A DNA stretch of 64,000 nt. Origin: an uncultured Candidatus Poseidoniales archaeon (GTDB lineage Archaea; Thermoplasmatota; Poseidoniia; Poseidoniales; Thalassarchaeaceae). Positions 16,539 through 20,045 of the stretch are shown here, in pieces (the first letter of the stretch is position 1; each line of letters begins with the position of its first letter). The stretch spans positions 1 through 64,000 of the forward strand of contig CACELO010000001.1 of NCBI GenBank assembly GCA_902560445.1, in the 5' to 3' direction. Below the pieces are notes generated by a model. The model saw nothing but the letters and a program-made list of their open reading frames with translations, did no database searches and was not told the DNA's origin. The position numbers were made by a program, and so were the translations under genes.

Positions 16539-18140
16539 ATGGCGAAACACAGAGCGGGAGACCGCCGAATAATCAGTATCAGTATACCCGAAGAGCTTGC
16601 AAGGAAGCTAGATAGAAGGGTCGGAAAAGGCCGAAACGATGGCAGATCAGCTACAATAACGAAAATGATTCAAAATGGTTTGGAAACTGAGCAAATTACA
16701 ACATTACAAGACACCTCAATCGAGAAAAGAAATGCATCCGGAGTAACTGGTGAAATTAGAATCGAAAGAGACACCATGGGGGAGTTAGATGTTCCAGCAG
16801 ATCGATACTTTGGAGCACAAACCGCCCGTTCACTAATCAACTTCGATATAGGTACAGATAAGATGCCGCCATCAGTAATCAGAGCCTTCGGGATCCTAAA
16901 ACAAGCAGCAGCCGAAACTAATGTCGAACTCGGTCAACTCGACCCCCAGATCGGCGCTCTAATCTCTTCTGCCTCTGACGAGGTGATATCAGGTTCAATG
17001 GACGAACATTTCCCACTCCGAGTTTGGCAAACGGGATCTGGAACACAGACTAACATGAATAGTAACGAAGTCATTGCTAATCGAGCAATAGAGATGGCAG
17101 GAGGAGAGTTAGGTAGCAAATCACCAGTACACCCTAATGATCATGTAAATCGTGGCCAATCCAGCAACGATACTTTCCCCACAGCCATGCACATCGCAGC
17201 CGCCGAGGAAATCCACCATCGATTATTACCTGCAGTGCGATTACTACACAACTCTCTCGCTGTAAAGGCCGATGAGTTTGAGAATATAGTGAAAATTGGT
17301 CGAACTCATCTAATGGACGCAGTCCCACTCACTCTCGGTCAGGAGTTTGGGGGCTATGTTTCGATGCTTTCATCCGATATCCGCCGAATTGAAGCTGCAT
17401 GGGATGATTTACTGGAGTTAGCATTAGGCGGAACGGCAGTTGGAACGGGGCTAAATACCCATTATGAATTCGCTGACAAGGTCGCCGATAGAATTGCCGA
17501 GAAGACCCAATTACCATTCGTCTCGGCTGAAAACAAATTTGCACAACTAGCGGCTCATGATGCAATTGTTGCTGCATCAGGGGCACTAAACACTCTCGCT
17601 GCAAGCCTAATGAAGATTGCAAACGACATCCGTTGGATGGGTTCAGGACCACGCTGTGGCTTTGGAGAATTATCTCTACCAGCAAACGAACCAGGTTCGA
17701 GTATCATGCCTGGAAAGGTCAATCCAACACAGTCCGAAGCTATGACTATGGTGTGTTGCCAAGTAATGGGCAATCATACAGCAATTAGCGTAGGCGGCAG
17801 CCAAGGAAACTTCGAACTCAATGTGTACAAGCCCTTGATGATACATAATTTACTACACAGTACCAGATTACTTGCAGATACTTGCAGGGCCTTTACCGAG
17901 AAATGTGTTGATGGACTTGAGGCCAATGAAGGGGTGATTGCATCCCATCTTGAAAATAGTTTGATGCTGGTAACGGCTCTAAACAATCACATCGGGTACG
18001 ATGGTGCAGCAAAGATTGCTAAACATGCACACTCAAGCGGTTGTACTCTTAGAGAGTCGGCCCTTGAACTTGGCCTGGTTACAAACGATCAATTCGACCA
18101 ATGGGTGAAACCTAGAGAGATGATTGGGCCTAAAGAGTAG
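16539..18140 (+). CDS. fumC: Class II fumarate hydratase with an N-terminal ribbon-helix-helix-like domain
   Basis: Fumarase signature [16 protein letters not shown] and [19 protein letters not shown]-terminal [41 protein letters not shown] resembles RHH/CopG. Confidence 0.95.
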
Positions 18141-18212: not shown

Positions 18213-18895
18213 TAGATGGAATAGGGCTCAGCCGTACTTTGGTACAAGGTGGGAGCAGCAGGGGGTTCTGCACATGGGGGAGCATCCCCCCCTGCTATCT
18301 CCGCAGGGTCCGGTTCCATCCGGGCTTGCGCCCTTTTTTTCCCGGGTAGATGACTACATTGCTCCGAGGAGCCTTTTCGTCGTTTTCCGCTTCTTCAAGG
18401 ATCGCTCCCCGTTTCTGCGTTTCCATTTCCCTCCCCGGCTCTCACCGGTTTGTTCTTTGGAATGAGTGCCGGTCCTCCACGCGTCTCCGCGCTCTTGTTC
18501 CCGCTGTGTTTCCCTCCGGTTTCTTTTCCCCTTCCTTACGTCCAGTTTTTGTCTTCCTTTGTTCCCCACAGATCTGCCTCAAGCTTTTCCCATCTCTGGT
18601 TCTCTCGCTCTTCGCTTATGCACTCACGGTCTGGTTAGTTGGCACGGTATGCGTTTTCCCTGCCTAAGCAGTGCGGTTGTGTTTTCCCCAACTTTCCCTG
18701 TGGCTTCTTTCCCCTTTCTTTCGTCCGGTTTTTTCAACCTCAGTTCGACCGTATCTCCCCAAGCCCAAGTGCCTGGTTCGATTATCCCCGGTCCCCTTTC
18801 GGTTTCCGGTTCTACCACCCCGAGTTCGGGGTTCGGTTCTGTGGCCCGCGGTGTTTGCCGAAGCTCGCACCACACCACTCTCCCAGAGCGGCATC
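18213..18895 (-). ncRNA. Candidate large structured noncoding RNA of unknown family
   Basis: Minus strand is purine-rich with GNRA-capped hairpins at 18322-18333, 18435-18448, 18480-18491 and 18788-18809, a cUUCGg loop at 18857-18864, adjacent helices 18840-18874 and 18875-18891, and a BRE/TATA-like promoter at 18917-18931. Confidence 0.5.
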
Positions 18896-18916: not shown

Positions 18917-18931
18917 CAATAAACCTTTCGC
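18917..18931 (-). promoter_or_regulatory. BRE/TATA-like element for the candidate ncRNA
   Basis: Minus strand GCGAAAGG-TTTATTG; TATA centre about 25 nt before the predicted RNA 5' end near 18895. Confidence 0.4.
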
Positions 18932-19001
18932 TAAATGAGGTACTGTGGACTGGAAATAGGGGTGACCGAGTGTTAATTTCCAGTGCACATAAAGATGTAA
19001 T

Positions 19002-20045
19002 TTATCTATTTCTTAACATCCTTAGACGTGCTCTTAGCTCAGAATTCTTCGGATCATATTCAGATTTATCTAGCTGTGAATCCAATCTTCTTTGCATAAC
19101 TCCAGATTCAACAAAGTAGACTCTTCCCAGGTCATCACCGAGTACTATTCCACTGGATGAGCAATCCATCTGACGTACTCTAGAATCATGGGATATTGTT
19201 TCCGATTCTTCGCCTAGAATCATTATTTGCACATTCAACCCATCGAATGAAGATGCCCAGCCAATAGAGTCGACAATTTCTACGGAATCGATCGAACCAG
19301 GAAGAATTTCTGATTTGGTTTTCATTGAAATGCTACCATCTTCGTGACCAGATATCCAACCATAGGCGCTTGATGCAATTGAGGTTACCAATGACTCCCC
19401 CTCAAGGATTGAATCCTCCAATGCACTTACTGAGCCATCAGCATGTCCAAAAATTAGTTCTGTATCATTTCCAGAACCACAAGTAACTGGACTGTTTGAT
19501 GGTAGTTGAATATGTTCGATACCTAGTTTAGGACTTACTCTGACATAACCACACCTCGGTCGACCTAATCCTAGAAGAATTCCGTCTGAACCATCTGAGG
19601 CAATATGCCAAGGTCGTTCAGCCATTACCCATCTCCCTAATTCATCTCCCGAACGATCAAATCTCCAAATGGTTGCTTCGATGAAGTCCGCGACCTCTAA
19701 CTCGTAAACTGAGGAGGTCGCCCAAACAATTCCATCGACTGCAAAAACGTAATCACTCGCCCCCTCCAATTGTTTACTCCAAAGAATAGAACCTTTCTCC
19801 TGGTCAATTGCATGAAGAGAATCAGAGGCTGTGACATAGATGATGTCCGAATCTAAAGAAATATCAGAAATTGGGCCTTCAATCGAAACTCTCCAGTTCT
19901 CAATCCCGCTGGAAGCATCCCAGGAAGCAAGTAATCCATCGTGTGAGCCTGCCAATAGTGAATCCTCGCTTAGTCTAACTGTGGAACAGGAGCTGGAAAG
20001 GTCTCGCACATAGGACGAGATTACCTCAAGGGAAAGTCCGGCCAC
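19002..20045 (-). CDS. Beta-propeller (PQQ/WD40-like repeat) protein
   Basis: Repeats such as GSHDGLLASWDASSGIENWRVSIEGPISDIS, HAIDQEKGSILWSKQLEG, SGHEDGSISMKT. Confidence 0.65.
   Translation of the reverse strand: MAGLSLEVISSYVRDLSSSCSTVRLSEDSLLAGSHDGLLASWDASSGIENWRVSIEGPISDISLDSDIIYVTASDSLHAIDQEKGSILWSKQLEGASDYVFAVDGIVWATSSVYELEVADFIEATIWRFDRSGDELGRWVMAERPWHIASDGSDGILLGLGRPRCGYVRVSPKLGIEHIQLPSNSPVTCGSGNDTELIFGHADGSVSALEDSILEGESLVTSIASSAYGWISGHEDGSISMKTKSEILPGSIDSVEIVDSIGWASSFDGLNVQIMILGEESETISHDSRVRQMDCSSSGIVLGDDLGRVYFVESGVMQRRLDSQLDKSEYDPKNSELRARLRMLRNR

Follow-up and report, generated by a model that had tools for sequence, protein, structure and literature searches.

A large structured RNA gene conserved at one chromosomal locus in marine Poseidoniales archaea

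Introduction

OLE, GOLLD and ROOL are large ornate RNAs of bacteria and phages, which form RNA-only assemblies (PMC12286853). From marine group II archaea, an unknown non-coding RNA named Tan1 has been described, with a length of 229 nt, a reportedly high abundance and homologues that are 75-79% identical to one another (PMC5069720). The RNA considered here, of ~650 nt, likewise comes from marine group II archaea and is structured, but the length and identity range given in the description of Tan1 probably set the two apart.

Few archaea of the surface ocean are as abundant as the Poseidoniales. The order has, to our knowledge, no cultivated member, so that its biology is read from genomes. 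In a stretch of 64,000 nucleotides from one such genome (contig CACELO010000001.1, positions 1 to 64,000; hereafter the window), an initial annotation had proposed a large structured non-coding RNA on the minus strand, belonging to no recognised family. Covariation, a promoter-like element and the lack of any Rfam match support this proposal, and positions 18246-18895 of the minus strand almost certainly constitute a real and new structured RNA gene.

Results

Locus and promoter

The gap between the end of fumC at 18140 and the near edge of a WD40/PQQ-like gene at 19002 measures 861 bp, in agreement with the figure of about 860 bp given at the outset. The principal features are as follows.

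16539 to 18140, plus strand: fumC, the usual convergent neighbour (Pfam Lyase_1 and FumaraseC_C; synteny)
18246 to 18895, minus strand: conserved non-coding RNA gene of ~650 nt with an approximate 3' end (DNA homologues, shared synteny, covariation)
18917 to 18929, minus strand: predicted promoter, a BRE/TATA-like element GAAAGGTTTATTG (both GAAA and TTTA almost unchanged among 64 homologues)
19002 to 20045, minus strand: WD40/PQQ-like beta-propeller gene, the constant upstream neighbour (Pfam PQQ_2; synteny)

In the 64 homologues, GAAA and TTTA of the element GAAAG-TTTAT keep a constant distance upstream of the RNA's conserved 5' end; the sequence that separates GAAA from TTTA is variable and fast-evolving. 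A GAAA/TTTA pattern with a start at ~18893-18895 is what the anatomy of archaeal BRE/TATA promoters leads one to expect, and we infer from these sequences that the element is such a promoter, with its predicted start at that position. Its conservation in turn supports both the assignment of the RNA to the minus strand and the placement of its 5' end.

Two further observations concern the flanks. The stretch between the WD40-like gene and the promoter, at 18940-18990, contains repeats of a motif of the type TTTCCANTGGAAA / CTGGAAA, ~30 nt apart. The motif recurs in the same place in homologues of both families (e.g. L089, L129, L136) and is possibly a regulator site or a terminator. The FumC protein (16539-18140) carries an N-terminal extension ahead of its fumarase domain, with a weak ribbon-helix-helix match (RHH_1, E 0.0035, below the Pfam cut-off).

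Secondary structure and covariation

Alignment of the homologues reveals a constant 5' domain of ~109 nt and a 3' domain of ~102-134 nt, separated by a purine-rich middle of varying length; among Thalassarchaeaceae homologues, the core spans 542 to 1096 nt. Covariance models R1 and R2 were built from the alignments of the 5' domain (A2) and the 3' domain (A1), respectively. The elements of the RNA are listed from 5' to 3'.

18785 to 18893, minus strand: 5' domain (alignment A2, model R1)
18893-18890/18816-18813, minus strand: P1, 5' domain
18891-18885/18881-18875, minus strand: P2, 5' domain
18873-18870/18851-18848, minus strand: P3, 5' domain
18866-18863/18858-18855, minus strand: P3a, UUCG hairpin, 5' domain
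18832-18828/18821-18817, minus strand: P4, 5' domain
18809-18801/18796-18788, minus strand: P5 and P5a, GNRA hairpin, 5' domain
18385 to 18784, minus strand: variable purine-rich middle domain (length variation; internal repeats by BLAST)
18475 to 18494, minus strand: middle GNRA hairpin CGCG-GAGA-CGCG with flanking GUGGAG (stem variation across genera)
18247 to 18384, minus strand: 3' domain (alignment A1, model R2)
18345-18341/18314-18310, minus strand: P20, 3' domain
18336-18330/18325-18319, minus strand: P21/P21a, GNRA hairpin, 3' domain
18302-18299/18255-18252, minus strand: clamp P22, GGAG/CUCC, 3' domain
18295-18288/18265-18258, minus strand: P23, 3' domain
18284-18281/18272-18269, minus strand: P24 with the invariant CCCCCA loop, 3' domain
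within the 3' domain, minus strand: tail CUCCCACC, a conserved single strand

With z = -3.07, the fold of the minus strand is more stable than those of all 20 shuffles; for the plus strand, the value is z = -1.87 (20 shuffles). Comparison among homologues is the decisive test. In the 5' domain, 93.5% of the cells of its 28 pairs are paired across 38 homologues, 17 of these pairs have changed on both sides, and the 93 double-change cells compare with 21 in shuffles and with 32 at most when partners are slid. Similarly, 87.7% of the cells are paired for the 30 pairs of the 3' domain in 34 homologues, with 19 pairs changed on both sides and 66 double-change cells as against 17 in shuffles. An R-scape-like all-pairs G-test with a tree null, in our own rough implementation, yielded no individually significant pair, a result that we take to reflect limited power or the implementation itself. 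Counted on tree branches, by a comparison chosen after the G-test result had been seen, independent double changes number 30 in the 5' domain and 23 in the 3' domain, compared with no more than 6 and 8, respectively, in 2000 matched random pair sets. In wider alignments, which were fitted to the models, the counts are 48 and 69, compared with no more than 11 and 9.

The middle hairpin varies in the same manner, its stem reading GCG/CGC, GGG/CCC, AGG/CCU, GGA/UCC, GAU/AUC, GCA/UGC or GGU/ACC in different genera, with loops that are mostly GNRA. At the level of sequence, pairing in the 5' domain, the middle GNRA hairpin and the 3' domain has thus been kept through many compensatory changes, and the covariation that the initial annotation had suggested seeking in related Poseidoniales is strong relative to shuffles, slides and matched pair sets alike.

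Several of the individual elements first proposed are present where they had been placed, namely the GNRA hairpins, the C(UUCG)G loop, the composite CCGG-aaa-CC-GAAA-GG-gga-CCGG element and the AGCAGGGGG/CCCCCTGCT stem of the 3' domain. A proposed helix UGUGG/CCACA, on the other hand, is contradicted by one genus that has UGUGA while CCACA is unchanged, and an alternative GYGR/YCGC pairing covaries. The closing stem GATGGAA/TTCCATC finds no support either, as it is confined to close relatives. Conservation ends at ~18246; therefore, although the RNA is indeed large, its conserved length is ~650 nt rather than the 683 nt first suggested. P1 shares two bases with P2 at the lower end of the latter, and both helices are supported, so that either the junction is shared or the two helices alternate. 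A suspected long-range helix, CCGCGGG/CCCUGCGG, was discarded on account of its overlap with the covarying P3.

Distribution and inheritance

A DNA search recovered homologues in 78 of 195 related genomes, covering seven genera of Thalassarchaeaceae at identities from 97% down to ~60%. At every locus with both flanks, the gene order is M32 peptidase, WD40-like gene and RNA on the same strand, facing fumC. Model R1, which was trained on these seven genera, also matched, weakly, the untrained genera g3 and g4 and the sister-family genus g17, and R2 matched the untrained genus g7. These loci adjoin the same WD40-like gene, except for one g7 locus without a neighbouring gene in the available stretch. 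A third model, R3, built with the g3, g4, g17 and g7 loci plus g15, then found the sister-family genus g22, absent from its training, beside the WD40-like gene; this locus displays, in order, the promoter-like element, the 5' hairpin and the GCGGAG...CUCCCA 3' domain. Genus g2 was missed by the models, and the 3' domain is present there in the same gap.

Altogether, every one of the 11 Thalassarchaeaceae (marine group IIb) genera sampled has the RNA, as do three of 11 genera of the sister family (g15, g17, g22), at the same syntenic place. In several other sister-family genomes, the two neighbour genes abut and the gap is nearly absent, and fumC is reversed in some genomes of this family. Absence from eight of the 11 sister-family genera indicates that the RNA is not essential to the order.

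Public records that match the conserved pattern are titled Candidatus Thalassarchaeaceae, marine group II or related Poseidoniales labels, and include single-cell genomes. Two of the 73 matches, one from Verrucomicrobiales and one from Streptomyces, lack the neighbour genes and the other features of the RNA and were judged to be chance, the Verrucomicrobiales match lying within a coding gene. Outside the order, the sampled Thermoplasmatota contain no convincing relative, and two weak matches from outside the class (G336, G372) are probably chance. The plasmids and phages searched gave no match to the RNA, nor did viral contigs searched with one pattern, and a phage or plasmid origin was therefore rejected.

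Individual genomes hold two peculiarities. At L008 (G002:C94), the end of the WD40-like gene and the 5' domain of the RNA form a partial tandem duplication, seen in one assembly and either real or an assembly artefact. In a g6 genome (G095), a weak model match at L104:2960-3170, away from the WD40-like locus, marks a separate short RNA-like locus with a TATA-like element of its own and a 37-nt P3 module, GUGGUGUGG...CGCGGG, in common with the large RNA; this short locus was found in no other genome searched.

A second RNA locus and Tan1

The non-coding gaps of one relative were screened with a rough gene finder that misses small genes, such that the census serves as a screen only. A second structured-looking RNA locus of ~270 nt emerged at L287:18726-19082 (minus strand; G049:C2:138726-139082). 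It is present in 50 of 97 searched relatives from 11 genera, shows 71-85% identity between most genera and has no match in Rfam. Since its length and identity range are the better fit to the 229 nt and 75-79% of Tan1, Tan1 is probably this second locus rather than the ~650-nt RNA.

Discussion

Role of the RNA

Comparison of the loci establishes a promoter-like element, conserved 5' and 3' domains, compensatory changes and inheritance at one place. A predicted promoter of its own, combined with this inheritance and with the conservation of whole domains, points to a trans-acting RNA whose folded ends would be its working parts. As a whole, the evidence is probably best explained by an independently transcribed, trans-acting structured RNA, restricted to the Poseidoniales as far as they were searched and most likely serving as a scaffold. 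For the scaffold role itself, which is proposed by analogy, we consider the chances about even. The 5' multi-helix domain and the 3' clamp domain would then be the working parts, and the purine-rich middle, lengthened or shortened by lineage, would join them; a middle that varies in length while the ends stay constant is what might be expected of a scaffold with a tolerant middle. By the example of OLE, GOLLD and ROOL, such a scaffold might be built as a ribonucleoprotein or from RNA only; its invariant loops and unpaired stretches, GGGCCACA, CCCCCA and CUCCCACC, would be candidate partner-binding sites.

The main rivals to a scaffold among trans-acting roles are antisense-type regulation and catalysis. 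The segment GGGCCACA, the CCCCCA loop and the CUCCCACC tail are nearly invariant across genera though unpaired in the model, as would suit a regulator in which these segments pair with target RNAs and the remaining fold stabilises the molecule. Yet a length of 650 nt with many covarying helices far exceeds the usual need of such regulators, and GGGCCACA is absent from some genera, making this reading unlikely, if the strongest of the alternatives.

All carriers, even those with fumC reversed, have the RNA behind the WD40-like gene and in the same orientation, so that it could be a cis element, either a structured 3' UTR or a processed trailer of that gene. However, the promoter-like element intervenes between the two at a fixed spacing from the RNA start, and several sister-family genera have the WD40-like gene but lack the RNA. 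We regard a cis element as improbable.

A self-acting RNA, be it a ribozyme or an unknown catalyst, is slightly less probable still. Compact multi-helix domains and tetraloops suited to tertiary contacts would befit it, but no Rfam ribozyme family matches and no catalytic motif was recognised. More generally, a search with the covariance models of Rfam 15, a check that had been proposed from the start, matched no family anywhere in the window at the gathering threshold, nor did it do so at 14 loci, 13 of them with divergent relatives of the RNA; a permissive search of the gap gave chance-level matches only, all on the plus strand, with a best E of ~3-5.

A protein-coding gene or chance hairpins can practically be discounted: long stop-free frames do exist on both strands, but conservation is weaker in translated frames than in the DNA, and these frames contain stops, which refutes coding at the sequence level, and covariation excludes chance. 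Least credible of all is a highly diverged form of RNase P RNA or SRP RNA, which the size class and archaeal context might suggest and which the initial annotation had already set aside, given that standard copies of both (RF00373 and RF01857) are found elsewhere in the same genera, for the most part in the same genomes, and that of SRP RNA also in the window's own genome.

The preferred reading remains a trans-acting RNA, most likely a scaffold. Kept throughout one family and in part of its sister family, a ~650-nt RNA with a predicted promoter represents a gene that protein-based annotation has overlooked, and a large, probably important RNA of abundant marine microbes appears, to judge from genome sequences, to have gone undescribed so far. 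The novelty is that of a new RNA family, no known family having been matched, and not of a new mechanism. If confirmed, it would add an example of a large structured RNA from beyond the bacteria and phages, and the covariance models are ready for use on existing metatranscriptomes.

Comparison with known structured RNAs

Like RNase P RNA and SRP RNA, the Poseidoniales RNA is a single-copy structured archaeal RNA, but neither of those models matches in the window. Its closer resemblance is to OLE, GOLLD and ROOL, with which it has in common a large and elaborate covarying secondary structure, a transcription unit of its own (here predicted), purine-rich linkers, tetraloop hairpins and a function that is unknown or poorly known (PMC12286853). 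In Rfam, none of the three matches it in sequence or structure. The several hundred nucleotides and elaborate covarying fold by which ornate RNAs are recognised are nonetheless both found here, with a core of 542-1096 nt. Unlike those RNAs, it is archaeal and chromosomal, resides in one constant neighbourhood and has no phage or plasmid match. It is tempting, at somewhat less than even chances, to see in it a new class of large ornate RNA: a chromosomal, vertically inherited archaeal gene whose product would form an assembly, of RNA alone or of RNA with protein, that serves a role peculiar to the marine Poseidoniales.
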